A DNA stretch of 64,000 bases, taken from the NCBI GenBank assembly GCA_903813345.2, contig CAIIXF020000010.1, positions 10,840,349 to 10,904,348 on the forward strand, written 5' to 3'. The notes beneath the pieces were generated by a model. The model was not told the DNA's origin. It made no database searches and worked only from the letters and a program-made list of their open reading frames with translations. A program made the translations under genes and the position numbers. Position 1 is the stretch's first letter, and every line of letters begins with the position of its first letter. The stretch is from Owenia fusiformis. Taxonomy: Eukaryota; Annelida; Polychaeta; Sabellida; Oweniidae. Shown one piece after another: positions 13,339 to 47,500 of the stretch.

Positions 13339-13945
13339 ACTTTTTAACTTGTCCCTTGCAGCTTATAAGTGTAATTGTATTTGTTCTTGTTTTGTCGGCA
13401 AGTGCTTGGAGAATTTCATCTACAATTGCGCGTGCTTTTTCTTGTCATTATGATTTAAGTTCTGCTGTCCATTAGTGTACCAATTGTTGTTATATAAGGC
13501 AACTATTACTTGTGCTTAATATTACACCATTATTCCTGATCTGACTTTTGTTATGCTAAATATTACATTTTAAGTATAATGATATATAATAACATAATCG
13601 TCAGATTTCTTTTGTATGTTGTTCGCTGCCATGCAATTGTTTTATCTATTTGTTGGATATAGCAAATTGATCGTGTATGATGGCTGGCTTATTGCACATA
13701 TAGAATGACCATACGATATTCGGACTAAGCCAATATGTTTAGTCTATCCGGCGCGGTTCTATAGTACAGCGTGACAAAAAATACTACCGACTAATCGGAA
13801 TAACTTTCTCAATAGTTATGGAATCATCATGATCTTGTATGTGTGGAGTGATTGTTCACAACCTGGAAATTCAGAGATATCTCATTTTCTGTGAAGGCAT
13901 GCTCTGACACAAAATCACTCAAAATTTACCCAATATGTTATCATC
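13339..13945. other. Upstream region of the DEG/ENaC gene
   Basis: Noncoding, AT-rich; presumably holds the promoter of the minus-strand channel gene. No motif distinct enough to name. Confidence 0.4.
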
Positions 13946-17640: not shown

Positions 17641-18186
17641 TAAATATCATCGATCAAACGTGGTTTATTTTGTAACATTGTTTTACTTTTATAATGTCAT
17701 ACTTAATTAAAGTTGGGTTAAAAGTTGTATTTTGATCAAATGAACTCTGTAAATATTTTTTTCTTAAAGGTGAAGCTATAGTGACATCTAAAAACAAAAA
17801 CGTGTACATAATGTAACTTATTTTCAAGTATTCCAGTTTTCAAACGTTCACAAATGATCAATCATTAACGAACACTGGGATGTAAACCTTTATGCAAACA
17901 TACTTTTGCTTATAAAAAGTATCGAAATATGAGTCCTCCCTTTAACAACATTCCTTGACAGAACTTTTGCTGCGAAGAATGCAGTGGTTAAATTGAATAT
18001 ATGCTAAATAGAATAATCCAAAATGTCATTAAACTCTCAAAACTGACAATATAAAAGGAAAGTCAAACACATCTCTGGTAGTACTTACCGATACTTTGAT
18101 TTATAATAATAGTCAAATCACATACCATAAAACTACAAAGAAAAAAGTTGGAAGAAGATTTTACCCAACATAACGATTTCTTTAGG

Positions 18187-21100
18187 ATGGTGTTTGAATT
18201 CACGGACGCAAGTACCATAATATCATATGGTAGACTATCAGTTACTATAGGTTGTATTATCATAGTGCTATGTATCGTATATGCTGTCAAAACAATACGA
18301 CATATTGTTTCGTTACCCCCAGGGCCATGGGGATATCCTGTTGTGGGGGTCCTTCCTTTACTAGGAGATAACCCAAACAGATATTTTCAACAGATGAGCA
18401 AGAAGTTTGGACATGTATGCAGTATGATGATTGGGTCGAGGTATGTATGTTTTAATGGACGTTGGTTCGAGGTATGTATGTTTTAATGTACGTACGTCTT
18501 GGGAACCAACTTGCGCATTACACAATATTTTATTATCTAAATCCATTTATTATCTAAATCCAAATTAGCTTATCTTCAAAAATTCAAATATCACTAGTAT
18601 TATTAAGCCTCCATCACATTTACTACTATGATCGTGTGATCTGAAATTTCTACGGTCAACAGTAATGATAAGGTCGCCGTAGAATTTCCACGGTCACATA
18701 CTGTAGCAGTTACATATGCTACGGTAACCGTATTTTTAATTCATTACGACAAAAAGTATAAAAGTTGCCACAAAAGTGCTGTATATGTTTTGGGTCATTT
18801 AGACTAGTGGTGATAGTGTCAGGGACGACGGCTTTGAAGGAGTTTCTCCTCAAGAATGGGGACAACTTTGCAGCACGGCCAGATACTGTAGTACAAGCTG
18901 TGGCAGAATCACACGGTATACATGACAATGATTTACATTTTTTATACACATACCAATGCACTTTTGGTTACTTTAAAGGCTATTACGCCACATTTAATGG
19001 ATCCTATGGCACAGATCCTCAAATGGCTCAATTAAGTCAAGCAGTTTTGTACCAATTACATGTAGAAACAAAAGAAAAGCCTTGGAGTTCATAACTCTAT
19101 GTTTTGTGGTTCAACTTTGACATGATTTTGAGGGCGTTGGGGGAAACCCTTTACATATTTTTTCATGATATTTAATCAAGGTATCATTTGGACGGAGGGA
19201 GATATGTGGAAAGAGCAGCGGAGATTCTCACTCACAGCTTTGCGTAACTTTGGAATGGGAAAACTTCGTGCTGAAGAAGTGACACATCATGAGCTGCAAA
19301 TATTGACGTCAGGGCTTGAACAACTGGACGGTTTGACGCACTTTCATTTATATTCATCTCACATATTGATTGTTCAAGATTAAAGATAAACTAATTCAAC
19401 GTTTCAAGTTTTACCGCTTTTTAATGAGTTAAAAAAGGTTTTACCCTTTCAGACGCTGAACGGCATTGAACTTACAATTTTTCACTTGCCACATTTTGAG
19501 GTGGATCACGGTTTTGGCATTAATGGTTGAGGAATAGGGATCAAAACCAGCAATAGTTTTCTCCTGATGATCATACATTGTGATAATGGATTATGGCAAT
19601 GGCTTTGCGAATGAATGTTGACCCTCTGAAACACTTATGGACTTTGAGACTGGATTTTGTCTGTCCCACATCATTTGAGATTGAATGATCTATCTTGTAT
19701 TCAGAGTACTTGTATCTACAATTATTTTTGATGTTATGAGTATTGGCTATCACTTTCTATTTTTTTCAACGTATGTTGTAATAACTTCAGTATAATGAAA
19801 TGTCCCTTAGTGTTCTGGTCTTGGATTGTGATATTGGTTCTTGAATGGCAGAGGAAAGGGGTTATTAGACGTTGTTTCATTTCACGTTAGATCATGGTTT
19901 TGGGATTCCTGGTGTTTGTTTTTCTTACGACTGGTATACACTTAAAGTTTGCTTTTTTGCTAGGTAACAATGCAACTTTTGGTCCTTCCCCTTTGGCACT
20001 TATCTGCTTGTGCGTACATTATATTGTAATATTTACTGAGTACAATGCACACTTATTGTGACCAAAATGAACTAGAATTGTCATAATTTACAATAAAATA
20101 ATGATGTTAATGTTATCGTTTGAAAAACGTATCTCTATAGTGATGATATCCTCCATTGTCCACATGGTTTCCCCCTTTACACACTAGGAAGATTTCCTCT
20201 CAAAAGGGTTGGCCTTAATCTGTTAATATGGAATATCATTTGTTACAGGTCAGTCAGTGGACTTGAAGAAGTATATCTTGGCTAGCGTTGGAAATGTCGT
20301 TGGTACAATACTTTTTGGGAGACGGTTTGAAAATACTGAACCCATTTATGCCATGTTGAACGACACAGCAGATGTCCAAGTGAGTAAAGTATAGATACAA
20401 ACCCAAGTTTAGGGATGATGTTTGTTGTTAGGGGTGCAGAGATTTATTGGATTTACAATAAGCCATTTTGAAATATTTTAGACATAAGAGTATTGCTATT
20501 CTCTTGTTCATGTGTTACTCAAAATGAATTTTAATGGAAAATGTGATTTTCGAGTTTGATAACTATTCCCGAATGATATGGGAAGGGAGGAGTTATGCAT
20601 TATTTGGACATCAGACCATTGTTTAGAATATTAGGAGCTTTGAGTATGGCCGCTTGCACTCTTGGATGTTTCTTTTTCTAAATATGTTTTGTTACATATA
20701 TATTTTGTTTCAACTTTTTGCACTTGCTTTTGTGTTTCCATATTTAGGTGGAAATGTTTTTCAATGAGACAATGTTCACTTACTTCCCCGCACTCAGAGA
20801 CAGCCTGTTCACACGGAGTTTTCTGCGGAGTCATAAAAAGCGTCTGGACGACATGTTTGAGCGCGAGAATGCCATGCGGACTATTATGAAAAGTTTCATC
20901 AATGAGAGCCTAACTCAGTTGGATGTGGACAATCCGAAGGGGTTTCTAGATGCGTACCTGATAAAAAGACGAGCCCTTGAAGATGAAGGGAACCAGACTC
21001 CTTTCTCTAGTAATTGTTTTGATTACCTATCTATAGATATACCTATATCATTTCTGTAAGCTTATATGTCTTAAACGCACTTAGTGTTATTTTAGCGATA

Positions 21101-23190
21101 CGTTCATGTACAATAATCGCCACTATGCAGATATCTGGATGTTTATACAAATATTCATATTCAGAAAGAAAGAAACAAATAAGATGTCATATAATTATAG
21201 TAGGCCTTTTTATGAAGAGCAAAAAATCAACATTACATGTACGCTGACTTATTTCAGATGATGACCAGCTTGCGCAACTCATGGTTGAGCTATTTGACGC
21301 AGGCCATGATACCACAGCCATGACGATAATGACAGGGATCCTCTACTTGGCGAGAAACACAGACGTTCAAAGAAACATGCAAATCGAGATTGATGACATT
21401 GTCGGTGGCTCGCGAATGCCATCTTCCGCAGACCGCACTCGATTGGTTTACACGGATGCGGCTATAATGGAAATACAAAGGTTGAGCTGTCTCTTCCTCC
21501 CAAATACTCTCCCATACCGGAGTATTAGATCTGTGAATATATGCGGTTTCGAGATACCCAAAGACGCCTGGGTATATCCAAATTGGTTCGCTACGATGAG
21601 AGGCTCGGAACATTGGGAGAATTCACTGAGTTTTGAACCAAAGCGTTTTATAGATCAAGATGGAAAAATTCGCCAATTGGATGCATTCCTACCTTTTGGA
21701 CTGGGTAAAACACCTTTTTGATATTTTTGCCAGGTCATATACATTTCGTGATACTAGACACTTTAGTAATGGAACTCTTAAAGTCCCCATCTAAAGTTTA
21801 AACCACTTTGGCTTATATTGTAGTCTTACCCAATGTTATCAAAGTGTGATATGTGAAACTTTTTTTTTAAATTTCAAAAAGTGGTTTTTGATAGACTTTT
21901 TGTTCCAAAATTTGTGAATTTATTTAAAACTACATTTTAGAGGTCACACATATCTTTTAATTAGCAACAACACATACCAATGCAAAGCATTCATCCTCGC
22001 ATGTTTTTTGCCGAAAAAATTAAGAAAATCGGTTCATAAATAAGCGAGAAATGAACTTATCAGTGCATGAAAATGGTTCCGAGAAAAATGCATTTAAAAA
22101 TTCTAGTTCTCATAGAAACCAATGGTACAATGATATCTAAAACATAATATATTCTTCCTTTTAACCTGGTTAGACAATCAACATTGGTATATTATTGAAG
22201 TCTAGCATAATTAGAAAAGATTGACGTCGAAAAAAAATTTCAATTATTTTCAAAAAGTTTTTGGTACCTTAGTGACATCACTAATGGTGCAAAATATTTT
22301 TGATATGCTAAAACATGGAAGTGGCCCATTAAATATGGCATTTTATTATTGAAATAGTGTGTCCTTTGATCAATCTTTGCATTGGTGTTAAAAAGATAAT
22401 CTTTTTTGAAATGCATTAAGAAATATTTGATGATTAAAAAATTTCAACTTTTTTTGAAAAATGGCGGGAAATTTGAATATTTGAAAAATGAAATGCTCAC
22501 AACTTTTTTTTGAAAAAAATTTTTCTTTCAAAAATCTCTAGAATAACTTTTTAAGTCATGACAAATAGTAAATGAATGATACAAAAATATTTTCAAACTT
22601 TAGACGGGGACGTAAAAAATTAATGCTGACCTATAAATCATATTTCCTTTAAATCTTTAAATTAGCTATTATATTATTCTATGTGCAGAAATGAATATTG
22701 TTTAATTTCGAAGAAAACAGGGAACTAAAGCTGCACGTTTTTAAGATAAGGTCCCCCAAAAAAGCAATTGACGTTCACGTACTTGAAAACGTAACCTCTC
22801 TATTATATCCCCTCAGCCCCCTGCTCTCCCCAACATGGGGGAGGGGAGGTCCAAAATATTTTATGTAAAAAACGTCAATGAAACACTTTTTCTAAAGTTA
22901 TGAGACATGTAATTTTTAGTATATTTGTATTGCTCAATGAGTAGGCCTATACTGACAAAAGTAATTTACTATGAGGATTGAACATAAGAATTTGTTTTCT
23001 TTCAGGTCGGCGAGAGTGCCTTGGAAAGACTCTGGCCAAGGTTGAACTTTTCCTTTTCTTCACAAGTCTTCTGCAACAATTCACATTCACAGCGCCACCT
23101 GGGGAGGATTTACCGTCGCCAGAATCCTCCATTTGCTCGAATTTGATGCGTCCACCTCTGTTTAACGTACTCATCACAAAACGTCACTGA
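18187..23190 (+). CDS. Cytochrome P450, clan 2 (CYP2-like), 7 exons
   Basis: Exons: 18187-18440, 18803-18915, 19181-19330, 20249-20379, 20748-21009, 21258-21704 and 23006-23190. All are GT-AG and phases match throughout, giving 513 aa. ATG 18187 is chosen because the longer frame opens on TTG. N-terminal anchor at about residues 17-35, then the PPGP hinge (44-47). I-helix oxygen-activation motif AGHDTT (318-323), K-helix ExxR as EIQR (375-378), and FEPKRF (429-434). Heme loop FGLGRRECLG carries axial Cys457 and is split by a phase-1 intron after Gly452. Length and motifs are those of an intact microsomal monooxygenase that would use P450 reductase; the substrate cannot be inferred. An AATAAA lies at 23323. 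Intron 6 holds an 829-bp foldback element. The first splice donor is tandemly duplicated (see separate entry). Confidence 0.94.
18436..18497 (+). repeat. 31-bp tandem duplication covering the exon-1 splice donor
   Basis: TCGAGGTATGTATGTTTTAA occurs twice, with donor GT dinucleotides at 18441 and 18472. The upstream donor gives the in-phase transcript. Use of the second adds 31 bases and shifts the frame. Confidence 0.85.
19615..19990 (+). repeat. Dispersed repeat, uninterrupted copy, in P450 intron 3
   Basis: Aligns with two separated pieces at about 51145-51260 and 54576-54790. Shared markers are TACTTGTATCTACAATTATT, then AGTATTGGC, TGTCCCTTAGTGTTCTGG (C/G variants) and TTAGATCATGGTTTTGGGA. 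It serves as the empty-site reference for the 3.3-kb insertion there. Confidence 0.7.
21783..22611. mobile_element. 829-bp foldback DNA element in P450 intron 6
   Basis: Terminal inverted repeats GTCCCCATCTAAAGTTT and AAACTTTAGACGGGGAC bound it. Inner segments also pair (ACCAATGCAAAG on the left, CTTTGCATTGGT on the right). Rich in A and T runs, no ORF. Confidence 0.65.
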
Positions 23191-24218: not shown

Positions 24219-24948
24219 TACGATTCGAACATGAAAACTAACCAAATTGTTTCGAATATTCATCATGGTCCGCCATTACTACGACCCACCGTTATGACGT
24301 CACACATTACACGTATTTACAGGGGTATTGATCGCGAATATATCCCAGGTGAAATGTTGACTTTGTTTACAGTTTATAGAAGGCGTGAATACAGTCAAGT
24401 TCGAATCGCTGTTAGTACACATGACCTACCTGTCTGTCTAGCTATAAATTATATTATTGGACTTTGAAATTGATTTAAATCAAATAACCTTTTATTAACA
24501 GTGAAGTGTTCTTAAAAACATATCGCGATTTGTGAATCACATCGCATCGGAGGTGGCATTATTTGATGTGGGGCCATTTAGGAGTCGCAGAACCACATAC
24601 CCATGGTAGAATACGTCAGTGAAGTATGATCCGAAAGGACTCTTTCCTGGCTAAACTCTCGTTTTTTCGAGAGGCGATGGAATATGACTTGCGTGACAAC
24701 ATACATGTAAAAACAGGTTTACAACAATATTAGTACGTATTCGTTTTAGTTTATGCATCTGAATACTATATTCAACTTAGTTAAGCGACAAGAAATATAC
24801 CATCAATAGCTAGTTTTTGTTATTAAAATCTTGTTGGTAGGCATAATGTAGATTGTTTACCAAGCACAAAAACGTCAAAAACGTATCTATCGAAATTTCA
24901 CTTCAAGTATCATTTTAATTTTTGTGTTATGTATTTAGGTTAAGAATC

Positions 24949-27900
24949 ATGGGGATCAGTATCGAGCAGTGGCGATGTACCATTGGTTCATTTCATCCAC
25001 GTCATTTGAACACTGGACGCATAGTTGTCGTCCACGTACGAAGCAAACCAGTAAAACCATCCGAAACAAATGGCCTTGAGGAGACTCGAGAGGGAAGGGT
25101 AAATACAATGGATGACCCATATGGTTATGGAAGAATATTCTCTTGGATTCGGTCATTGAGAATCGACCCTCGGTTGTTAGTAGTCATTGCATTTCTGCTG
25201 TTGATTGGAGGTGTAGAAGTCAACCCAGGGCCCTTGACACCTGATAGTAACAATGGTATGATTACTATGCTTGACTAGATAATGTTAGTGAGAAGAACGA
25301 AAGCATTGAAATTAAAGTTTTGTGCTTGAAAACATGTTTTATGAATGGGCCATTTGCTATATAGTTAAACAGATATGTAAGCGCAAGTACCAACGGGGAA
25401 ATACCAAAAAATAGTTACAGAACACAGCCAGAAAAAGAAAACGTCTAAGTGAATACAAAGCAAAATTATAAACAGTATACTAACACAATATTTCATAAAA
25501 AAGTTTGTCATCGTTTTTGATTTTGTATCTCATGTTTCTGTCTTTCAGGAACACAGTTGAATGAACTACGTGTTAAGATTAAGGGGAAACTAAGACACAT
25601 GGATGAGTCAATGACAAGATTGAAGAATAAAGGTGATAATTGGTTCGATGTATTGCAGTACTCTAATGTGAATACCAGCCTCTAAAAGGGTTTAAAACCA
25701 GAGCATTTTTCATTTTCTGCTAGTTTTCTGGATATTTCAATCTAAAAATACAATGTTTGATATTTGATTTCATGAGAATAGTAAACATAGACCTATTACA
25801 TACATTCTAATACATAATTTGTGAAGATTGGATAAAAAATGCCAAAGTTAGAGCAGTTTTAGTGGAAATTCTGTGACATATATATGATATATCTGTCGTT
25901 CTGGGTTCCAAATGGATTTTATTTGTGACAGATATATCCGTCATTCTGGGTATTCAAGAGGTTAATATTAGAAATATTTAAATCGTACATAATAATGTAT
26001 AGCATATGTATATATTATAAAGAGTATTATTAATGATGATTCAATATATTTTCCATTCCTACATAGTACTTGGTACACAGAATATGATTTCTGTCAATAA
26101 TGACGTTCACCTGGATAGTGGCTCTGATAATGAAGCTGAAATCGAACTCCAAGACATGGACGATGAAGGTAAACACTGTGCATACAAATTATTCAAACGG
26201 TGTCGTTTATATTATTCCGTATTGATAGTTTTGTTTACATTAATACGGAATAAAACATACCATTTTATGAAAAATGGTGACCTTTTGCTACGAGATATGG
26301 ACCTTCATGAATTTCAGATCTTCAAATCCTAGACCTTTTGCTTGAAATGGTAATGGACATAGATGAGAAAGTAAAAGAAGAACACAGTGGGAAAGGATCT
26401 CCATCTCAAGTCTCCATCACAACAAATGGTAATTAGTATTATTGTATTTGCGAATGTAACTGACGGCTAGCGGCTACCGGATTAACTTACTATTTTATGA
26501 CCAAATCATTTTATTATGAATAGTACCTGCCACTATTCCATATATATTGAAATGAGTTGACCATAAAATAGAAGGTTTATCCGATAGCCGACAGGTGTTA
26601 GTTGCATTCGCGAATACAAGCTTAGTGACTTGTCAGCTAGTTTGGCTCGTGCGCTACTATACCCATCTGATCTTAAAGAACATATTTCATGAATGTATAG
26701 AATATATGTTGTAAAGCAAAATAGGGTTTGTTTCATATCCAACTGATGTGTCCAAAGTGATGGCATAGCTTTATTTACCCTTTGCATTCGTTTGACTTCA
26801 CTTCTTAAAAGAGAGCTTCGTCTTCACTTGTAGTTTAACTAGACTCTGCACGCAGGGTAAGCTTTATTAGGTACTGTGTGATGTTTCTTTGTACTTCGGA
26901 TTATTGTTTGTGATGCTGGGGATCCGTTTTCTCATCCAGTTGTACTAAGTTTATCAGAATTAACCAGTTGTTGTTTAAATGGAAATCCATGAAATGCACA
27001 AAATAAAGTATCGTCAAGATTTTCATAATTTCAACATAGATTTGTCAAATGGCGAATGATATGAGCTCAACATGTCTTAAAGTCATTATCGATATTGCTC
27101 CCATTGATAGTTTGTAGCGATGCATCGTTGATGTTTATTTGAAATATTATTACAGATCTAGACACAAACGACGAGGCGAGTAACAAAGTCACATGGGCAA
27201 AGGAACTGCTTGAACAACTAGATGATACACTGAAGGTGCTTCGAGTGTTTGAGGCTTACCTAATGCTAGGTAAATAGTATGTAAGATACAGTGCTATAAG
27301 GGGAAAAAACAGAACGTTTTAAAGATATAGATGTAAAGGGAACTTGTACGGTTCAGTTCAGTTCAGTGTCTTTATTTCCTCCACATAGGTGAAGATTTAA
27401 ACATTACATATAATTACAAACAATTTACATTAACAGATTATTTACATTTGTACATATCAATTGTTACATATAGATTTACATTTAGAGTTTTACATTTCTG
27501 TTTGTTTGATTACTGTTTTTACCATTAGATCAATGTAATATGCACTATTCAATAGGAACTGTTCAACAGTAGAACTTTGAACATGCTCAAAATGTTCTCT
27601 TGGTCGTCACGTTCTACAATCAGAACGAGTGACAACCTACTAACGACGAGCTGGACGTACTACGAACGGAACCGTCGTACTTCAATCCTACTAGGGACGT
27701 TTTTACAACGAGTTGAACTGTCTGAGAACTTATTGAGAACGAGGTAGAACTAATTGTAAACGGGTTAAAACTGTAATAAGAACGTATTTATCAACGAGAT
27801 ATAGCTATCACACCAAGCAAGTTGCCACTGCGTTCTTCAAAACTGGTTTTAAACTGTGTGCGAACGGAATGAACGTAGCTACAACGTTCTACGGTCTGTT

Positions 27901-30900
27901 TACGAACTTCGTGGACTTCCCCGGTCATGATGACCTTCTAGACTAAGGGACGCGTTATACGACGTTGCACACCGACGTAGTGCGAGCTGATTGAACGAAC
28001 TGTGAATGAGATGGACGTATTGAAGACTGTTTATGAACGAAGTAGCTAATTATTTTAGACATATTTCCCGACCACAGCCAGATTGAGCCCGTTTTACGAC
28101 GTTTTCGTAGGACTGGCAATAACGGGTAAGAACTAGTTTGGTGTGATAGGGGGTAAGTAAACGAATCCCAAGTATCCAAAACAATGATATAACACAAAGA
28201 TACGGTGTGTATCATATTTCAAATTTGCCTCTCCATATTAAATGACCGGAAAACATACGACAACATATGGATGCATCCTTCAAGATCGGTCCTTCACTGC
28301 TTTCATAGCAGATCATGTTATGCAATGAATTACTCTTGGGCCAAGGATTTATGGATGCTATGAACACGTTTTCATATGTTATGCTATGTTTTAAGAATGG
28401 AACATACAGTAAGCATTGATGATGCAGCTTTGATGTAAATGTGTAGTTCATAATATTTTAATATTGTAATATTTATCATTTTAAATCAAGTGAGTGCACC
28501 ACCAAATAAATCGGCTTTTCCGAAAGAGATGTCAACATTTCAACATCTGAATACCATTATCAACAGTAAAAAGGAATGGTCATCAGATACTGGATCCATG
28601 AAAACGTCGCTGAGTTATCTCATTCTCAAGGCATTGGTTAAGAAATGTGGTTGGTCGATAGAAGGCAACACTCCGGATCAGAACACAGGCGACAGTCTAT
28701 TTGAGGCTCTCTGCCATCAACTCGTTTACACGAAAACGACTAATACAACCCCTACGGAGTTGAGACAGAAACTAGTGGCTTATGTAAAGCAAAATACACA
28801 ACTGGTAAATTCATGTTATTCGTTGGCTTATATTTATCAGATTGATTAACTTAAGTCGTTCTGGCACTTTTTCTTATCCCACAGAACAAAGTGCCGTAGG
28901 GATATAAAGAAACCATTCGTGCGTTCGTCTGTTCCTCCGTCCGTGCATTCGTCCGTCCGTCCGTTTGTCCGGATGATAACTCAAATACCGGTTGACGGAT
29001 TTGATTCAAATTTAATAGGTTCATGTCTTTATGGGTGTAGAATTTCTCCTCGAGAAGTAATTTTCAACATGGCCGCTCAATTCAAAATGGCCGCCATTTT
29101 TTCATAAAAATGTTATCTTTGATAACTCAAATACTAGTTCACGGATTTGGTTCACATTTTATATGCTGATGCTTAGGGACAAAGAAGCTTTGCTTATGAA
29201 GAGATTTTCAAGATGGCCACTGAATTTCAAAATGACCATCAATTTTCGTAAATGAATGTAATATTTGATAACTTAAATACAAATGGATGGATTTGGTTCG
29301 AATTTTGTAAGATGATGCCTAGGGGCAAAGGAGATTGCTCAAAAAGGAATTTTTAAGATGTCTACTGAATTTCAAAATGGCTGTCATTTTTCGTAAAAAT
29401 GTAATCTTCGATAACTCAAATACCAGTGGACTGATGTGATTCAGATTTTACAGGGTGGTCTAAAAATCATTTACACTTTTGATTGCATAGCATTTTCTAC
29501 CTTCAGTGTTGTTTCAGTTTAACTATCATAGAAGCACCATAATGTGAGCACAGATCATGTAGTTTTTTAATGTGCTCAATCCAACCCTATTGCATACATT
29601 GTATGAGATCATACGATGGGACACGAGTCTGTCTTTTCCTGATCTCTGTTTTAATATTCTTTAGCTCATCAATAGTTTGCTGATTATTTGCAATGATCCT
29701 GCCTTGAAAGTATCCCCACCAAAAAACTGTAAAGGGGAATGTCTTGAGAATTTGCAGGTCAGGTGTGATTCATACGATGAGAGATGAGTCTGTCTTCAGG
29801 GAATAGTTATGACGGAGGTATTCAGGTGAAGCACTGAAGCAGTGCAATGTTTTGCTTCATCTTGCCGATAGATAACAGTATCCATGTCAACCTCTCGCTT
29901 CTGCACCAGTGCCAGAGTGATTATTTCTCCTCATAACTTCAATGTTTCAGTCCATGTTCACAGGAAATGAACGTCCATTAGCGTCCTCAAACCAGTACGG
30001 CCCAGTATCACCATTATGACATAACTTTCATCAGTCAACTTCTTTACATCATGCTGATGCTCACAAGGCTCAACCTGGGCCAGAAAGTGCATTTTCTATT
30101 TGTTGAAGGTCGCTACAAACTTAATGTGCAATCAAAGATGCATTATGCCATAGGTTTCTCCCCCAGACAATCAATGAAGTCCTATTGTTATTGCTCATAT
30201 AATATCTCACATACAATGGATATATCTTGAGAATAACTTTTGATATATTATTGCCGAAACATCGGAAATAATCAACAGAACAACCAAACTCCAGAATTAA
30301 ACACAATCGATTCCTTGGCTAGCGAGGGGAATCCTCATTGAGTCACAAAGCGCCCACAAGCGCCTTGAACCAGGCAGCCAATCAGGTTTATGATAAACAA
30401 ATTCAACGACCAATCAGATAACAGGATGACTTTCCCGGTATATTCAAACATCAGATTGAATTAATTTCTTCGAAAATAATTAGATCGGCCAGTACAATCG
30501 CAATCTTGATTGTGGCATCCTGTGGCATAGAGCCTTTTTAACTATACAGCGATCAGCACCAACGTGCTAGGATTGAGCACATCACAAACTATGTTAGGGT
30601 GGTATATCAAAATAAAACAGGTGCACAGGTCTATAAAAAATGTGAAATTTTCCTGTCTTTAGAAAAGCTGCTTTGTCAAAAATGTAAATGATTTTTCGGA
30701 TCACCCTGCATAGAAAATCATTTTAAAACGATTCGTTTCAAAATGAATGATTTATTAATTTATGAGTGAAAAGTATATCTATCTACAGGAGAATGGAGAC
30801 CATGTTATGGCACTATTTGACACAACTACGAATGATGAATGGAGAATACATTGTGAGCAAAATGAGGGGAAATTTGACAATGAAATGAAACTACAGTACT

Positions 30901-33900
30901 ACACAGGTTCGCACATGAACAAACCAGGGACACCGGGAGATATGTTGATGATATGGGCGTGCACGCAACTGTATAATGTTGACGTGGAAATATTCCCAGC
31001 TGCCTCCGATCGGTCGTATAAAATATCTGTAAAAGATGATCACGACAAGAGCATAAGAGCGACTATCAGACTTGGGTTCATCGGTCAGGCTTGTTTCGTG
31101 AGCCTTGTCAGCACCAACAAAGGTAGGACCAGCACCACATTCTAATAAGTATGTGAAAATAGTTGCATATGATTATAAAAACGTGAACCACATCTAAGAA
31201 CTAGTAAGTATTTGATTTGAAATTAACATAAGGCAATGTATGATGAAAATGAACAATCAAAACGCGAACGTTCTGTCAAGTATTTAAGTAGGGCCGTAGG
31301 GCTGTCAAATCCTCTCAAACACGCACAACATCCACAAATGAAAATATATCGCGTTTGTAAATTACAACACATGTGTTACATTATTTGTTGCTCTGTTACT
31401 TCACTTATTTCATCAACTATTTTAGAGTCAACCGAATACATGTACCATCTCGGACGTCAAATTACAGCCTGTGACCAGGTATCCGAAGCTAAGAAACAAG
31501 CGGGACTAATGACCGAATTGGGCTTAGAATACGCAGCGTTGGCCCTGGAAACACAAGATGGCTGGCATTTTAATTACGCAGCAACTCTGTTTAATGCAGC
31601 TCTACGACGCGTTGAGGGATGTGCGGCAGATTGCCCCGAAGGTGAGATAATTGTGAGAAACAAGCCTCTCACCGCTGAATATTTACATCATGAACTCCAA
31701 CAAATAGAGACTGCTTTCCTTAAACTACAATCAAGTGAAAACAATGAGCCAACACTTAGTTGTACCAAAAGGTACAAAGAAATACTGAAGACAATAAGAA
31801 CATATTCAACAGAAACAATCAATGACATCCATACCAATGATATGCAAATTGACAGTATTACGTCAGACATGAGTCTTGACAATGAGAAGCAAACAATTTC
31901 AAACAGTAAAGGATACTATGCTAAATTAACAGACTTGATTAAAGCATTCCATAAGCAGTTAGTAGATGAGTGTGTAGCGGTATTAGGTGAACCCGACTGT
32001 AAGTATGTCATGTTAGGGTTAGGGTCGCTTGCTAGAAAGGAAGCAACCGCTTGGTCAGATCTTGAGTCGGCGATCATATTTGATCCTACAAGGAAAACAC
32101 ATAAGGAATGTGATGAGATAAAACGGAAGTTCAGAGTATTTGTTCATTACGTCCACATGAAAGTGATCAACTTAGGGGAAACCAAAGTCAATGTTCTGGA
32201 CATCCCCGTACTCACTGATTTCAATTCCAGACTCCCCCATAATGTTGATGATAATGATTTCTTCGATAGGGCTACCCCTCAAGGGTTATGTTTTGATGGA
32301 ACCTTACCCAAGGCAAGTAAACATCCACTAGGAAGAAGCTCAACTAGTGTTCCACATAAAAAATCGGCTAGTCTAGAACTCATAATGACACTTAAGGAAA
32401 TTGTCAAATGTCAGTCGGAAGATGTGGCTATCAAAGAAGGATATCACCTTAGCGATGTGTTGATGACATCTACTCTAATACACGGTGATCAATCTCTTTG
32501 GAAAACATACAATGATGAAGTCCATAAAATTCTTGCCTCACCGTCTACCACAAATCCCAAAGTAACCATTGGAACAGAACGTGGACAGAATACATTGAAA
32601 GATGATTTGAAAACCTATATCAGACGTCCTCTGATACCAGAATCATTTCAAAAACAGTTACGAACAAAGCACGACATCTATAGATTTGCTACGATTTCTA
32701 TCAATACTCTGAAACTTCTGTATAACTGCATCTCATTCAACCCACTTGATATCATCGAGGAATTGTACCAAAGAAATGTTCTCAAAGAGCGAGCGAAGAT
32801 AGATTTACAGCTCATGGTCTGTATTACGATAAACATGAGACATCTCGTGTACAGTAGGTATGACCAGCAACGAGATATCATATCCTTTATCATTCCGAGA
32901 GCTGAACAAGATGATACACAGGTATCCCCTAAAGTAGTTTCTGTGAGGGACTTTACATCGATCTACAGGTTTTATGCTACATTTTTACCTTGGTCACAAT
33001 TCTTAGAGGCGCATAGAGGTGACATAGCTACCTGTAGACACGAGGAAAGATACTATGACAGTAGCAATACTATGAAGGGGGAACTTCATCAAGAAATGTA
33101 TTTTACTAAAAATGCAATCAAAGCTTTCGAACTTGAACACATAAGACTTCAGTCACTTGATACAACGTATAACAATACATTAAAACTTGCTGGTGTTAAA
33201 CATACCTTGGGTTTGCTTCATAACTCACTGGGAAATAATGATATTTCAATAAAATACTGCAATCAAGCTCTCGAAGAAGTCTTACATGTCCACGGAGATG
33301 CGCCCAATGAGCAAGTAGCATGGATAAGAAATAGCATTGGCATTGCATATGATGATAAGGGAAACTATAGTGAGGCCATCAAATATCACGAGCAAAGTCT
33401 TGCAATGGAAAAATTACTTAACGAGGACCAACCTCATGAAGGAATAGCTATATCACTGGGTCATATTGGCACATCGTACAGGCAAATGGGAGATAACAAC
33501 CAGGCCATTAAATATCATGGACAGAGTCTTTCAATGCAAAAACTACTTAACGGGAACAAACCACATTCAGGAATAGCTATATCGTTGCGTAATATTGGTG
33601 CAACATACATGCAAATGGGAAATAATAAAAAGGCTATCGAACATTATGAGCAGGCTCTTACAATGCAAGAACAACTTAACGGGAATCAACCTCATCCAGG
33701 AGTAGCTGCCTTGTTTGGTAATATTGGCACAGCATATATGCAAATGGGAGATAACAACAAGGCCATTGAATATCACGAGCAAAGTCTTGCAATGCAAAAA
33801 GTTTTTCATGAGGACCAACTTCATCCAGGAATAGCTGCATCATTTGGTAATATTGGCATCACATATGACAATAAGGGAGACTATGATAAGGCCATTGAAT

Positions 33901-36900
33901 ATCATGAGCAGAGTCTTGCGATGCAAAAACTATTTGATTCGGATCAACCTCATCCAGGAATAGCCATGTCGTTGTGTAATATTGGTACGGCGTACAGTCA
34001 TATGGGGAATAGCAACAAGGCCATTACTTATCACGAACAGAGTCTCGCAATACAAAAACAACTTTATGGGGACACACCCAATCCGGGAATAGCTACATCT
34101 TTGGGTAATATAGGCATCGCATATGACAATAAGGGAGACTATAATAAGGCCATTGAATTTCTTGAGCAGAGTCTTGCGATGCAAAAACTACTTTACGGAG
34201 ACCAACCTCATCAAGAAATAGCTGCATCGTTGGGTAATATTGGTACAGCATACATGCGAATTGGAAATAACAGCAAGGCCATTGAATATCACGAGCAGAG
34301 TCTTAGAATAAAAAAAAAACTTAACGGAGACCAACCTCATCCAAAAATAGCAACATCGTTGAGTAATATTGGTGCAGCTTACAGACAAATGGGGGATAAC
34401 AACAAAGCCATTAAATATCTTGAGCAGAGTCTCATTATGCAAAAACTACTTTACGGGGACCAATCTCATCCAGGAATAGCTACATCGTTGAGTAATATTG
34501 GTACAGCGTACATGCAAATGGGAGATAACAACAAAGCCATTGAATATCACGAGCAGAGTCTTGCAATGAAAAAAATGCTTCACAGAGATAAATCTCATCC
34601 AGGAATAGCTACATCGTTGGGAAATATTGGTATCACATATTTGCAAATGGGAGATTTCACCAAGGCTATAGGATATCATGAGCAAAGTCTTGCAATGAAA
34701 AAAATACTTTACGGGAGCCAACCTCATCCAGAAATAGCTGCCTCGTTGGGTAATATTGGAAAAGCATACATGCAAATGGGAGATAACAACAAAGCCATTG
34801 AATATTGTGAGCAGAGTCTTGCAATGCATAAACTTTTTAACGGAGATCAACCTCATCCAGGAATAGCCACATCGTTTGGTAATATTGGTACAGCATATAT
34901 GCAAATGGGAAATAATAACAAGGCCTTTGAATATCATAAACAGAGTCTTACAATGAAAAGGGTACTTTACAGGGACCAACCTCATCCAGAAATAGCTGCG
35001 TCTTTGGGTAATATCGGAAAAACGTACATGCGAATGAGAGATTACAACAACGCCATCGAATATTATGATCAGAGTCTTGGAATGTATAAACTACTTAACG
35101 GAGACCAACCTCATCCAGGAATAGCTACATCGTTGTGTAATATTGGTACAGCATATATGCAAATGGGAGATAACAACAAAGCCATTGAATATTATGAGCA
35201 GAGTCTTAAAATGCAAAAAATTCTTTACGGGGCCCAGTCTCATCCAGAAGTAGCTACATTGTTGAGTAATATTGGTACAGCGTACATGCAAATTGGAGAT
35301 AACTACAAAGCCATCGAATATCACGCACAGAGTCTTGCAATGAAAAAAATGCTTCACAGAGATCAATCTCATCCAGATATCGCTACATCGTTGGGAAATA
35401 TGGGTATCACATATTTGCAAATGGGAGATTTCACCAAGGCTATTGGATACCATGAGCAAAGTCTTGCAATGAAAAAGCTACTTTACGGGAGCCAACCTCA
35501 TCCAGGAATAGCTGTCGCGTTGGGTAATATTGGAAAAGCATACATGCAAATGGGAGATAACAACAAAGCCATTGAATATAATGAGCAGAGTCTTAAAATG
35601 CAAAAACAACTTTACAGAAACCAACCTCATCCAGGAATAGCCACATCGTTGTGTAATATTGGTACAGCATATTTTCAAATGGGAAATAACAACAAAGCCA
35701 TTGAATATTATGAGCAGAGTCTTGCGATGCATAAGCTACTTAACGGAGATCAACCTCATCCAGGAATAGCCGCATCGTTGGGTAATATTGGTACAGCATA
35801 TATGCAAATGGGAGATAACAATAAAGCCATTGAATGTTATGAGCAGAGTCTGAGAATGCAAAAACTACTTTACAGGGACCAGTCTAATCCAGGAATAGCT
35901 ACATCGTTGAGTAATATTGGTACAGCGTACATGCAAATGGGAGATAACAACAAAGCCATTGAATATCACGTACAGAGTCTTGCAATGAAAAAAATGCTTC
36001 ACAGAGATAAATCTCATCCAGGAATAGCTACATCGTTGGGAAATATTGGTATCACATATTTGCAAATGGGAGATTTCACCAAGGGTATAGGATATCATGA
36101 GCAAAGTCTTGCAATGAAAAAGCTACTTTACGGGAGCCAACCTCATCCAGAAATAGCTGCCTCGTTGGGCAATATTGGAAAAGCATACATGCATATGGGA
36201 GATAACAACAAAGCCATTGAATATTATGAACAGAGTCTTGCAATGCATAAACTACTTAACAGAGATCAACCTCATCCAGGAATAGCCACATCGTTTGGTA
36301 ATATTGGTACAGCATATATGCAAATGGGAAATAATAACAAGGCCTTTGAATATCATAAACAGAGTCTTGCAATGAAAAAGGTACTTCACGGAGACCAACC
36401 TCATTCAGAAATAGCTGCATCTTTGGGCAATATAGGTACAACGTACATGCGCATGAGAGATAATAACAACGCCATCGAATATTATGAGCAGAGTCTTGCA
36501 ATGTATAAACTCCTTAACGGAGACCAACCTCATCCAGGAATAGCCACATCTTTGGGTAATATTGGTACAGCATATATGCAATTGGGAGATAACATCAACG
36601 CCATTGCATATCATGAGCAGAGTCTTGCAATGAAAGAACTACTTTACAGAGACCGATCTCATCCAGGCATAGCTACATCGTTTGATAATATTGGTGCAGT
36701 GTATAGCAAAATGGGTGATAGCAAGAAGGCCATTGAATACTATGAGAAGAGTCTCGAAATTATTAGGCAGATAAGTGATGGACAGAATTCGAATAATCAA
36801 CAGATACCAAGTTTACTGTTAAGAATCGCTCAAGCATATTTAGAGTTAGGTGAAGTGGACAAAGCTATGGAATACAGAACAAAGGGCCTGGCCATAAGAG

Positions 36901-36911
36901 AGGGGGAGTAA
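24949..36911 (+). CDS. 2A-led pseudo-OTU / nucleotidyltransferase-fold / TPR repeat protein, 8 exons
   Basis: Exons: 24949-25255, 25549-25632, 26067-26168, 26318-26428, 27156-27269, 28491-28804, 30789-31122 and 31426-36911. GT-AG throughout; phases join to 2,283 aa. Two starts are possible: ATG 24949, or ATG 25108 (residue 54, A at -3 and G at +4), placed just before a hydrophobic 2A leader. Residues 77-95 (LLVVIAFLLLIGGVEVNPGP) end in the 2A ribosome-skipping motif. Residues 103-239 are acidic, partly heptad-like, from four small exons. Residues 290-450 resemble an OTU fold (TGDSLFEALCHQL, TPTELRQKLVAYVKQN, DMLMIWACTQLYNVDVEIF, CFVSLV) without catalytic Cys/His. Residues 625-720 resemble a GlnD/DUF294 nucleotidyltransferase (GSLARKEATAWSDLE; D714 in VLDIP). 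About 29 TPRs fill residues 1038-2280. Function unknown; sensor or scaffold is inference. AATAAA at 37370. Confidence 0.85.
25174..25236 (+). other. 2A-like translational recoding / signal segment
   Basis: Encodes a hydrophobic run followed by GGVEVNPGPL. The 2A consensus is D-[VI]-E-x-N-P-G-P, with the Gly-Pro bond not formed during ribosome skipping. Here all of V-E-x-N-P-G-P is kept and the leading Asp is Gly. The hydrophobic stretch directly before it can act as a signal sequence, as described for 2A-led proteins in sea urchin and other marine invertebrates. Skipping would give a leader peptide of about 94 aa (or 41 aa from Met54) and a downstream protein beginning with Pro95. Confidence 0.75.
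26776..26859 (+). repeat. Approx. 80-bp mini-element, copy 2 of 4 (intronic)
   Basis: 84 bp from TACCCTTTGCATTCG to CGCAGGGTA in an intron of the TPR gene. Contains TTCTTAAAAGAGAGCTTCGT, shared with the 49366 copy and, as the complement, with the 57417 copy. Confidence 0.75.
27560..28153. mobile_element. TIR DNA element (approx. 800-bp family), left-truncated copy in intron
   Basis: Matches the right three quarters of the elements at 43900-44696 and 45290-46093, ending in AACTAGTTTGGTGTGATAGG. The left terminus (CCCTACTATCACACC) is missing; homology starts near CATGCTCAAAATG. Short minus-strand ORFs shared between copies (CDS-like KRRKTGSIWLWSGN) are repeat sequence, not genes. Confidence 0.75.
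28974..29452 (+). repeat. Tandem repeat, about 145-bp unit, 3.3 copies
   Basis: Units start GATAACTCAAATAC at 28974, 29119, 29267 (GATAACTTAAATAC) and 29410. Each carries GGATTTGRTTC and AAAATGGCC-type segments. It is preceded by a GTCCGTCCGTCC microsatellite-like stretch at about 28925-28970. Intronic. Confidence 0.75.
29450..30711 (-). mobile_element. Degenerate mariner-like transposon in intron 6 of the TPR gene
   Basis: Ends CAGGGTGGTCTAAAAATCAT and, on the minus strand, CAGGGTGATCCGAAAAATCA are terminal inverted repeats of about 30 bp. The length of 1.26 kb is that of a full mariner. Inside, the minus strand keeps pieces of a transposase (see next entry). Confidence 0.75.
29640..30020 (-). 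pseudogene. Tc1/mariner-type transposase remnant
   Basis: Minus-strand fragments read GPYWFEDANGRS (about 29965-30010) and FWWGYFQGRIIANNQQTIDE (about 29660-29735). The second resembles the xxFFLWGYLKxRVYxNxPxTIDEL region near the C-terminus of mariner-like transposases. Frames are broken by stops and shifts, so this is a dead copy. Confidence 0.7.
33432..36785 (+). repeat. Coding array of 26 TPR units, 129 nt each
   Basis: Every unit is exactly 43 codons with no indel from 33432 to 36785. Consensus start is PHPGIATSLGNIGTAYMQMG, followed by DNNKAIEYHEQSLAMQKLL. Two degenerate units precede and one follows. Minus-strand ORFs of 80-180 codons across the array are mirror-frame artefacts of the repeat. 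Confidence 0.95.
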
Positions 36912-44500: not shown

Positions 44501-47500
44501 TTCTACGACGTTGCACACCGACCTGGTGCGACCTGAACGAACTGCGAACGAGATGAACGTATTGAAGACTGTTTAAGAACGAAGAAGCTAATTATTTCAG
44601 ACATATTTCCCGACCAAAGCCAGATTGAGCCCGTTTTACGACGTTTTCGTAGGACTGGCAAGAACGGGTAAGAACTAGTTTGGTGTGATAGGGGGGTTAA
44701 TATAGTATTAAGACTAATAGTACAATAACGTCATTTCAAAGGGCAATATAGTGAAATATTGGACCAAGGGCCGCAGGCCCAAGGTCCAATATTTCACTAT
44801 TTTGCCCGCAGAAATGACGTTATTACTATTATTACAACCGTTAATGCCCAGGGCTGAAATAGCAAATTTGAAATAGAAAATCTTACGCACTGAACGATAT
44901 CACTTTTCCCGGGAAACATAGCCGGGCGGATAATGTCATTATTGCCCGACTAAAGTCATTAACGCCCGACACAATATTGCTCACGTCAATATAGCAATTT
45001 AAATGCCTTCTCAACTAGTACTAAAACCCCTAGAACAGGCCCTGCAAGGTGGTAATAATGTTTGATATACTAGTATAGTAGCCGAACGGGGAGCCGAACA
45101 CTCATCACTTGATTTACTTTTATAATTTAAATTGCAAATTCGTCATGCACGTGTCTTGTTAAGCATATTCCTAATACAGAAATCCCTCGCAGAAAATTAA
45201 CCTTATCTAATATTTGTGAGTTTTCATGTTCGAATCATGATATAGACCTAAGATCAGGTATAACATGTAAGACTATGGGCCATACCTAACCCTACTATCA
45301 CACCAAACCAGTTCTCACTGCGTTCTCGAAAACGGGCATCAACTGTGTACGAACGGACTGGACGTACTTAGAACCGTTTGGGGTCTATTTACAAACTTCA
45401 TCGAACGTACTCGAACGATTAGGTCCTCTAGCACTTACATGTAGAGCATGCTCAAAATGTTATCTTGGTCGTCACGTTCTACAATTAGAACGAGCGACAG
45501 CCTACTAACGACGAGCTGGACGTACTACGAACGGAACCGTCGTACTTCAATCCTACTAGGGACGTTTTTACAACGAGTTGAACTGTCTGAGGACGTATTG
45601 AGAACGAGGTAGAACTAATTGCAAACGGGTTAAAACTGATTAAGAACGTATTTATCAACGAGTTAGCAAAAATATAGCTATCACACCAAGCAAGTTGCCA
45701 CTGCGTTCTTCAAAACTGGTTTTAAACTGTGTGCGAAAGGAATGAACGTAGCTGCAACGTTCTACGGTCTTTTTACGAACTTCATGGACTTTCCCGGACG
45801 GAGAATGTGATTTAGAATTTTGAATCGATTCAAAATTCGATGGCGACCATACCGTTCTGTAATCAGGTCATGATGACCTTCTAGACTAATGGACGCGTTA
45901 TACGACGTTGCACACCGACGTGGTGCGACCTGAACGAACTGTGAATGAGATGGACGTATTGGAGACTGTTTATGAAAGAAGTAGTTAATTATTTTAGACA
46001 TATTTCCCGACCACAGCCAGATTGAGCCCGTTTTACGACGTTTTCGTAGGACTGGCAAGAACGGGTAAGAACTAGTTTGGTGTGATAGGGGGGTTAGGAC
46101 GAGGCACAAACATTTTCAAAAGCTTATGGAAAACGTTTGCATTGTGCCTAGCCCTGTGGTGTTTATTCATCGATATAATACCTGCTCTACGGTCTGTATT
46201 TAACATATGATACTGACACACGATTGTGATAAAAATGTTGAGGAGATTTTGCCTCACAACTCGTAAATAAAGGAAAAGGAAGAGTGCAGTATTTTAGAAC
46301 GTTTGAACGGTAAAAGATTTCAGATTCTAACTGAGTGTAAGCCATCGTATCAGAATTTTAAATACTCACTTAACACAATAAGCTCAACTGGGTGATTTGA
46401 TGCGTCCACCAGCCTTCTACACTCATATTTTCCACCAGCACTCAACATCGGAGATTTAATCGTGAAATTTCTCCCTGCATTGGCAAAATCATACCTGGTG
46501 CTATCATACTCATTTGGCTGTAAATATAGGACGAATGAAGTTAAAACGCTAGTGCCATTTTAAAAGTAAGAGACGACGTCCAACATGTATATAATTTGGT
46601 TCATTTATCTCTTGATGGAATCTTCATTTAATTATCTTGATTGAATTCTGTTTTACAACGTTAACCTCGGTAAACGCTAAAAATATATATTTTTGTATCT
46701 GAATATTGTATTCATTGTTTACCCCTCGTATTTCGTTTTTAACCCCTTGCGTTCCATGATTTTAACACCTTATTTGCCATAGTTTAAACATATTCCACAT
46801 GCCATAATTAATTAAAATGTAAAATATAACACATTTGAAATGTATTACTTTGTTTATTACCTTGGCTGGATTAAATATAAGGTTCGGTGTGGTTGATGAC
46901 GTCACAAACTCCCACCATTGGATATATTCCTGTGGTTCTGGTTGTCCAGGGTCACATGTAAAGGTCACTGATACCCCTTCCCGCGTTGCATGATCCTTTG
47001 GCTCCACGATGGCTCTTGAAGTATAAGCTTAAACAAAATATAATATATCTCATGGATCACGATAAAGATAATTTCCACAAAAATAAATAAAACCAGATCG
47101 GCTCACTCATGCATAAATTATACATTGATTAATAAAGTGAATAGACGAGACAAATAAAAGTAAACATTGTAAAAGTTAATTCCAAATGGTTCAAAAGTGT
47201 ATAAAAAACGATATTCATGTTTTTCAAATTGATGGATGGGCACAGGAGGACAATGGTGGTATGTGTGCTTTTCTTCGCATATATCGCCTTTGCACATCAC
47301 AATATGAAAAGATCAATCTCCCAAACCACACTTTTCAATAGGCCTGGGAACGTGTATAAAAATCGGGTCACATTGTCTTTTTCTTAGGGAACTTGCAAGG
47401 CTACCAGTTAATGCAATCTCGATATTTTTCAAACTTCCCTGGGAAACTCAACTTGATTTTTTGTACATGTTTCTTTGGCATACGCACGCACTTTTCCTCT

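Follow-up and report, generated by a model that had tools for sequence, protein, structure and literature searches.

Parts of the gene described here are already known from two sources: 2A (StopGo) leaders are carried by immune genes of sea urchin, and the domain order OTU-DUF294-TPR occurs in the bacterium Neochlamydia. The gene itself lies at positions 24949 to 36911 of a 64,000-nucleotide stretch of the genome of the annelid Owenia fusiformis (contig CAIIXF020000010.1, positions 10,840,349 to 10,904,348, forward strand), hereafter the window, and is predicted to encode a 2A leader, an OTU domain, a nucleotidyltransferase (NT) module and a long array of tetratricopeptide repeats (TPRs). The Neochlamydia proteins appear to belong to the NEX2 family, described by Domman et al., who count 50 NEX2 proteins, a majority with an F-box and most with DUF294, and ten with an OTU domain placed before DUF294 and TPRs at the C-terminus (PMC4209131). 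The sea-urchin proteins are NLRs with an N-terminal 2A (SpNLR2A; Roulston et al. 2016), and that paper places 2A on approximately 35% (85/241) of NLRs in the introduction and on 14 of 87 database entries in the Results, demonstrates dual targeting by the 2A leader for one NLR sequence, and regards speculation about where cellular 2As come from as "fruitless" (PMC4981915). Through a title and a passage cited there, 2A is also reported from APE-type elements of multicellular organisms. StopGo motifs are described as very rare in cellular coding sequences (PMC12846837), and a review, in the section at hand, treats the AMPylases GS-ATase and DrrA as bacterial (PMC8097203).

What appears to be new, as far as our searches go, is the combination of these parts, its scale as an animal gene family, a DrrA/GlnE-type enzyme in an animal, and a link between the leader and retrotransposons. 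No paper on a 2A leader borne by such a protein was found in the open-licence PMC literature.

A 2A-led gene and its paralogs

The first-pass annotation, made from the letters of the window, had joined eight exons in phase into about 2,283 amino acids and had read the 2A/OTU exons and the NT-TPR exon as one gene with about 29 TPRs, all of which is borne out here. The eight GT-AG-bordered exons form one stop-free, in-phase frame of 2,283 amino acids on the forward strand, and 12 exon-border variants that differ by a few codons are equally stop-free. Exon 1 (24949..25255) encodes a 95-residue leader through NPGP, consisting of the head MGISIEQWRCTIGSFH, a hydrophobic stretch and the 2A core GVEVNPGP (25210..25233), and closes with a phase-1 donor; the predicted skip separates the Gly whose codon runs to 25230 from the Pro encoded at 25231-25233. 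Four small phase 1-1 exons follow: exon 2 (25549..25632, 28 residues), with counterparts in L079 and L080 at 78.6% and 59.3% amino acid identity; the acidic exon 3 (26067..26168, 34 residues) and exon 5 (27156..27269, 38 residues), both placed by in-phase join and alignment to a sister cluster; and exon 4 (26318..26428, 37 residues). Exons 6 (28491..28804) and 7 (30789..31122) encode the N- and C-terminal halves of the OTU domain, and the single large exon 8 (31426..36911) holds the 538-residue NT module (31428..33041), the TPR array and the stop codon. The array (33373..36754) is built of a 129-bp (43-residue) unit in 26.2 copies according to Tandem Repeats Finder, and Pfam reports TPR_12 at E 7.5e-221 and 29 TPR_1 stretches across the exon.

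The sister cluster at C10:1446000-1476400 consists of tandem copies, and a blastn comparison with window positions 24700-31500 recovers every exon near its borders, the aligned exons being drawn from several neighbouring loci. DNA identity is 82-83% for the leader (exon 1 against the leaders of L005 and L006, 81.6% and 82.7%), 75-88% for exons 2-5 and 78-83% for the OTU halves, and only two stretches outside the exons align, the 52 bp of 27029-27080 and, at 92% identity, 30134-30503, which is probably a repeat. Pairwise omega values against the sisters, obtained by simple counting and without a significance test, are 0.16-0.23 for the NT region, 0.21-0.48 for the window's OTU halves, 0.38-0.48 for its leader and 0.50 for exons 2, 4 and 5 pooled; exon 4 on its own shows no constraint (pN 0.30, pS 0.21 over 37 codons). 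Judged from sequence, the eight exons are one gene. The intronic stretch 30134-30503 lies in opposite orientation to its match in the sister locus L080 and is likely a repeat copy. A second repeat, sharing LRKRRKTGSIWLWSGNMSKI, has two minus-strand copies in the window (27955-28218 and 45762-46115), one of them within an intron of the gene.

The locus is far from alone; the first-pass annotation noticed neither the family described below nor the sharing of the leader with retrotransposons. A protein search of the genome (498 Mb in 525 contigs) with the 538-residue NT region found 83 places, which merge to at least 78 loci; counts of this search are lower bounds, and one merged locus (C5) contains two tandem copies. 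The genome protein search also placed OTU halves at 24 or more sites and recognized 18 or more leaders by similarity of their protein sequence, and the OTU module stands between leader and NT-TPR exon in some members only. In each of 15 paralogs a phase-1 donor after NPGP can be paired with an NT-exon acceptor of the same phase. The donor lies within nine codons of NPGP in 14 of the 15 (53 codons in L021), and the acceptor reads (C/T)AG|AG, in phase 1 with the leader, in 13, the exceptions being L016, without a good acceptor, and L029, with TAG|AA. The search behind these pairs was permissive (15 loci, at most eight pairs listed for each, common donor words), and some loci allow phase 0 too. 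Because such phase-1 pairs recur, the simplest gene of the family would consist of a leader exon and an NT-TPR exon, and the OTU and small exons would be a phase 1-1 block inserted between these two.

The leader and its probable kinship with retrotransposons

The window's GVEVNPGP fits the expanded StopGo core (D/G/C/N)(V/I)ExNPGP, given in PMC12846837, in which the first residue is p12. Across the genome, sites coding for [V/I]ExNPGP number 163, against 8 for the reversed pattern, and 53 against 1 once G is added at p12, in keeping with the hydrophobic 2A leader that had been proposed for this gene; two C7 leaders with GGVQLNPGP are missed by the pattern. We aligned 19 of 29 leaders, leaving out near-copies, the one with the longest linker, and those whose heads lay outside the fetched locus or were not found. 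The head follows the consensus MGxSxxQWRxAIGxF, and M1, G2, Q7, W8, R9, I12, G13, N92, P93, G94 and P95 (window numbering) are invariant in all 19, with a middle that varies in length and sequence. Leaders whose head was read span 54-120 residues, others being longer; the hydrophobic stretch ends 4-10 residues ahead of the final Pro, and mean hydropathy over 15 residues exceeds 2.2 in 16 of the 19. N-myristoylation of the MG head was considered and rejected, as most leaders fail its consensus.

Both ends of this leader recur in retrotransposons lacking long terminal repeats (non-LTR elements). Among 100 listed 2A matches we sampled 20, 18 of them picked away from NT loci, and found 13 clear non-LTR element frames, two probable truncated ones (L051, L065), three family leaders and two chance matches. 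The endonuclease-reverse transcriptase domain PF14529 was present in all four elements tested, and p12 is D in 14 of the 15 copies read (G in L062). A head profile built from 21 host heads was run on the stretches upstream of 2A fetched for 13 of the 15 elements (all but L057 and L065), with 400 stretches of the window as a null (maximum 3.8 bits). The head is found on the element strand in ten of the 13, at 7.6 to 37.1 bits, above the null maximum; the best score is that of L086, from the truncated element L051, and the best for a clear element is 29.6. In eight of these ten, one open frame spans both head and 2A, which are separated by 134-142 codons, or by 150 in L086, and in the elements head and 2A open the endonuclease frame. 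The head of L086, MGVSIMQWRSAIGMFR, may be compared with the host-gene head MGVTIDQWRSAIGNFH; the frame of the L015 element, itself frame-broken, starts MGVSINTWRARIGLFNG. Altogether, 11 different element copies carry the head.

Since the protein opens with two conserved ends in the same order in both cases, common descent of the leaders of host and element is very likely. The recurrence of leader head and 2A tail in 2A-bearing non-LTR elements suggests that the host leader was captured from a transposon. A move from element to host is the simpler direction, not a proven one. Homology by itself is directionless, which leaves some room for the opposite transfer, in which retrotransposons took the leader of a host gene. 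We consider this quite improbable, given the 11 different element copies with the head, the report of 2A in APE-type elements of multicellular organisms (cited in PMC4981915), and the resemblance of host leaders to shortened versions of those in elements.

A leader homologous to element starts could also be debris: elements are common (the 13 clear ones among the 20 sampled matches), and the leaders could be remnants lying near NT-TPR genes and outside their mRNAs, the true start being elsewhere. This is very improbable in view of where the leaders lie and how they evolve. Of the 53 sites with G at p12, 37 precede an NT locus of the same strand by no more than 10 kb, three follow one within that distance and none is on the opposite strand. 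Omega is 0.29-0.48 across leaders, the phase-1 donor and acceptor recur (in the permissive search described above), and host leaders of 54-120 residues are shorter than the 134-150 codons from head to 2A in elements.

Several observations weigh against this picture of a functional, captured leader on the whole family. Three leaders are weakly hydrophobic (L025, L042 and L056, with maximum 15-residue Kyte-Doolittle values of 1.43, 0.99 and 1.53). To the eye, the upstream context of the window's core, LLVVIAFLLLIGG, is similar to the L-rich motif 5, which has (A/G/S)G at p12. That motif lies outside those assayed in the section of PMC12846837 available, and the P that it prefers at p15 is V here. 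Three of the 13 element stretches (L088-L090) are without a head, and in two others a frame change (L092) or stops (L096) separate head and 2A. Of the 65 loci that reach 44% identity to the window, 43 are preceded on their own strand, within 40 kb, by a G(V/I)ExNPGP site and 22 are not, and all 13 loci below 44% identity likewise lack it. Counted by site over the same distance, 43 of the 53 sites with G at p12 precede an NT locus of their own strand and none is on the opposite strand, but 13 also lie downstream of one, as tandem clusters predict.

2A leaders or cores were also seen in other settings. In L076 (C11:27982300-27983200), the head MGMSIEQWRGAIGKF is followed by two tandem 2A cores (GIEKNPGPRVIETD repeated, 42 bp apart), with a TPR open frame (L082) approximately 5.7 kb downstream. 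In L075/L081 (C11:27958500-27966900), a 2A core behind a hydrophobic stretch, with no head in the stretch covered, is followed after about 2.9 kb by an open frame with TPRs and a TRAF/MATH domain (E 1.2e-31). At L014/L015 (C11:35430500-35452500), a 2A leader, an OTU half with His kept and a circularly permuted SF2 helicase of GREB1 type (cpSF2-GREB1, E 4.2e-33) follow one another, with a non-LTR element separating OTU exon and helicase; a joining of the leader to these other exons is unproven. At C1:60903230 (L083), a family-type 2A leader has no listed NT locus within 40 kb downstream, and a run of N is nearby.

OTU and nucleotidyltransferase modules and their bacterial counterparts

The OTU domain of the window is below the Pfam cut-off for PF02338 (exon 6 alone, 14 bits against 23.3, E 0.072), and exon 7 alone gave no OTU match in Pfam. 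The assignment to OTU comes from three paralogs, whose halves are 29-51% identical to those of the window and which pass at 46.9, 46.1 and 29 bits (E 4.9e-12, 8.4e-12 and 1.7e-6). At the positions of the catalytic Cys and His, the window copy has Ser (TGDSLF, exon 6) and Cys (GQACFVSL, exon 7). In a scan of 18 loci with fixed motifs, which halves with other changes would escape, Cys is present in 11 of 13 N-terminal halves and His in 10 of 13 C-terminal halves, the window included. Of the nine loci with both halves found, five retain the two residues and three (L005, L007 and L073) a single one; only the window copy has lost both. The OTU-like fold without catalytic residues that the first-pass annotation had described is thus a fair account of the window copy and not of the family. 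The domain is genuine by its sequence, and the window copy is constrained despite lacking both catalytic residues. Since its omega is 0.21-0.48, this dead copy looks maintained, and it is probably a pseudo-deubiquitinase that still binds ubiquitin.

For the NT module, Pfam gives DUF294 (PF03445) in exon 8 at 32.7 bits, above the cut-off of 21, and the predicted structure of the 538-residue module is of high quality (mean predicted local distance difference test, pLDDT, 89.1; predicted template modelling score, pTM, 0.90). The model comprises N-terminal helices, a DrrA/GlnE-like nucleotidyltransferase and a C-terminal helical domain. Foldseek returned four matches at E 0.001 or better, all GlnE or DrrA (E 2.4e-7 to 4.0e-6). 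By VIA-align, DrrA 6yx5_B matches at Z 22.5 over 321 residues (model positions 47-532, root-mean-square deviation 4.1) and two GlnE halves at Z 19.9 (1v4a) and 19.5 (3k7d_B), followed by DrrA fragments at Z 10.7 and 10.3 and other rows at about 8 and below; a sequence profile also picks DrrA from PDB (E 2.6e-4). In its predicted structure, the module has the GlnE/DrrA AMPylase fold over its NT and C-terminal domains. The nucleotidyltransferase core foreseen by the first-pass annotation is thereby upheld, while its likeness to GlnD is not, GlnD being absent from the matches listed. NCBIfam had no family for the module at E 0.01 or better, and PADLOC produced TPR models and weak partial matches only.

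The active site (G199-X11-D211-X-E213; 32022..32066, GSLARKEATAWSDLE) is kept, by alignment, in a DxE form. The alignment has 39 rows: 28 animal rows chosen from the 83 NT places, ten Neochlamydia plasmid proteins (of 12 places, a split gene being left out) and one protein from a metagenome-assembled genome (MAG; L046 left out). G199, T207, S210, D211, E213, E251, T252 and D280 are present in all 39. The second acidic residue is Glu where DrrA has Asp. Together with the loss of Cys and His from the window's OTU, this replacement of DxD by DxE could mean that the NT is no longer functional and that the protein acts as a TPR scaffold or decoy. We regard such a loss as rather unlikely, since the eight site residues are kept throughout animal and bacterial rows, the motif published in PMC8097203, G-X11-(D/E)-X-(D/E), permits Glu, and NT omega is 0.16-0.23.

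The full module extends into bacteria. Among 72,556 plasmid records, one gave a strong match to the NT module, from Neochlamydia sp. S13 (E 2e-29; next, E 0.08), and a profile search found 12 NT places on that plasmid (NZ_AP017978). Ten of these are at E 5.9e-66 to 2.1e-72, nine spanning nearly the whole module and one running from position 154, and the other two form a split gene. The match covers about 500 residues of Neochlamydia F-box-DUF294-TPR proteins: all eight plasmid proteins scanned in full have DUF294 and TPR_12, with an F-box listed in seven. From this common architecture we read the plasmid proteins as NEX2 members. A Rickettsia-titled MAG has one NT place (profile E 2.3e-63). 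Matches in 60 of 397 other Pseudomonadota cover 46-152 residues round the core, at E no better than 5.7e-9. Within the bacterial sets searched (plasmids, a contig scan with a one-peptide pattern yielding two loci, and the 397 Pseudomonadota), long matches are confined to Neochlamydia and two MAGs. A search of viral contigs with the NT module gave 18 pattern matches, none confirmed. No OTU was above cut-off in the six plasmid protein N-termini scanned, two of which had sub-threshold otubain matches (E 0.0092 and 0.087), and the window's OTU searched against plasmids gave no Neochlamydia match and two weak unrelated rows; we thus claim no relationship between the animal OTU and that of NEX2. Transposase genes lie near several of the 12 NT places on NZ_AP017978.

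In the tree, the 23 close animal rows group together with full support (100/100), and the order among Neochlamydia, the Rickettsia-titled MAG and five distant animal rows, where long branches meet, is unsettled, so we claim no direction of transfer. The full module, common to the animal and Neochlamydia, suggests that genes were exchanged between animals and intracellular bacteria, or that the two share a conflict module of great age. The first-pass annotation knew of no described protein of this architecture. The core architecture has precedent, because NEX2 includes OTU-DUF294-TPR, behind an F-box, in ten proteins (PMC4209131). Overall, the first-pass interpretation holds in part: its architectural elements stand, the pseudo-OTU applying to this copy, and the likeness to GlnD and the uniqueness do not.

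Elsewhere in the window, where G+C is 31-41% in 2-kb steps, a DEG/ENaC-type channel (11584-13362), cytochrome P450 exons (18100-21721) and a homeobox exon (4692-5075) were recognized by eye. Two near-identical tandem minus-strand frames of 172-173 amino acids (55820-57404) are AbfB-like by eye.

Proposed function and comparison with known systems

Our preferred reading, held with moderate confidence, is that the genes form a lineage-expanded family of cytosolic sensor or effector proteins with an AMPylase-type enzyme and a StopGo leader. The leader, captured from a 2A-bearing non-LTR retrotransposon, would be released as a short hydrophobic peptide when the ribosome skips the Gly-Pro bond, as it is expected to do mostly, and the OTU-NT-TPR protein, starting with Pro, would remain cytosolic. 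Where skipping fails, the leader would be retained and the same protein sent or anchored to the endoplasmic reticulum or membrane. One sea-urchin NLR leader offers a precedent for such dual targeting (PMC4981915). The TPR array would bind a target, microbial or host, to which the nucleotidyltransferase, with its G-X11-D-X-E kept, would attach AMP or another nucleotide. In paralogs keeping Cys and His the OTU could edit ubiquitin, and the OTU of the window copy probably only binds it. We infer skipping, dual targeting, AMPylation and a role in immunity alike, and the most likely setting would be defence against intracellular microbes, favoured because of the TPR-TRAF/MATH frame near a 2A on C11, the expansion of the family and the existence of a counterpart in bacteria that live inside cells.

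Conflict genes typically show lineage expansion, tandem clusters, repeat arrays and shuffled modules, as this family does. These traits, together with the restriction of long bacterial matches to Neochlamydia and two MAGs, argue against a non-immune role, such as vesicle traffic through modification of small GTPases, or a part in reproduction or larval life. Such a role draws on the best fold match, DrrA, which modifies Rab1 (PMC8097203), and we consider it unlikely.

A bolder version, which we offer tentatively and think less probable than the reading above, is that this annelid took the StopGo leader from its own retrotransposons and domesticated it, so that it now acts as a dual-targeting switch in a family of some 40 to 65 AMPylating TPR sensors. 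If so, host and symbiont would be armed alike, since the enzyme module is common to effector-like proteins of intracellular bacteria; animals would have an AMPylase type beside FicD and SelO; and a cellular 2A leader would have a traceable origin. The modelled DrrA/GlnE fold suggests that animals may have an additional way to AMPylate proteins, and the second conserved leader motif, linking to retrotransposons, makes the origin of cellular 2A leaders testable.

A comparison with described systems shows where the Owenia proteins depart from each. The 2A-bearing APE-type non-LTR elements have the same head and 2A order at the start of the endonuclease frame, but differ in a longer middle with multiple hydrophobic stretches, a p12 that is mostly D, and the endonuclease downstream. 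DrrA/SidM and GlnE share the fold over NT and C-terminal domains and the motif G-X11-D/E-X-D/E, whereas the Owenia module is 10-13% identical to them, has DxE instead of DxD, is followed by TPRs, is eukaryotic and is known here by sequence and model. NEX2 is alike in being a large family with DUF294 in mid-protein, C-terminal TPRs and, in ten members, an OTU ahead, and is unlike in being bacterial and in having its own N-terminal F-box where the animal gene has a 2A leader (PMC4209131). No F-box, NACHT or LRR was found in exons 1, 6 and 7 or among the best 25 of 34 families for exon 8. The first-pass annotation had also drawn an analogy to 2A-led NLRs of sea urchin, and it fits what PMC4981915 describes: SpNLR2A likewise forms an expanded, sensor-like family, whose members start with a hydrophobic leader closed by a 2A core. 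The sea-urchin type has NACHT and LRR where the Owenia protein has nucleotidyltransferase and TPRs, and its leader is 26 residues long, in contrast to the longer Owenia leader, which is an exon of its own with a conserved head and G at p12. While PMC4981915 left the origin of cellular 2As aside, the Owenia leader is tied to retrotransposons by its additional head motif.

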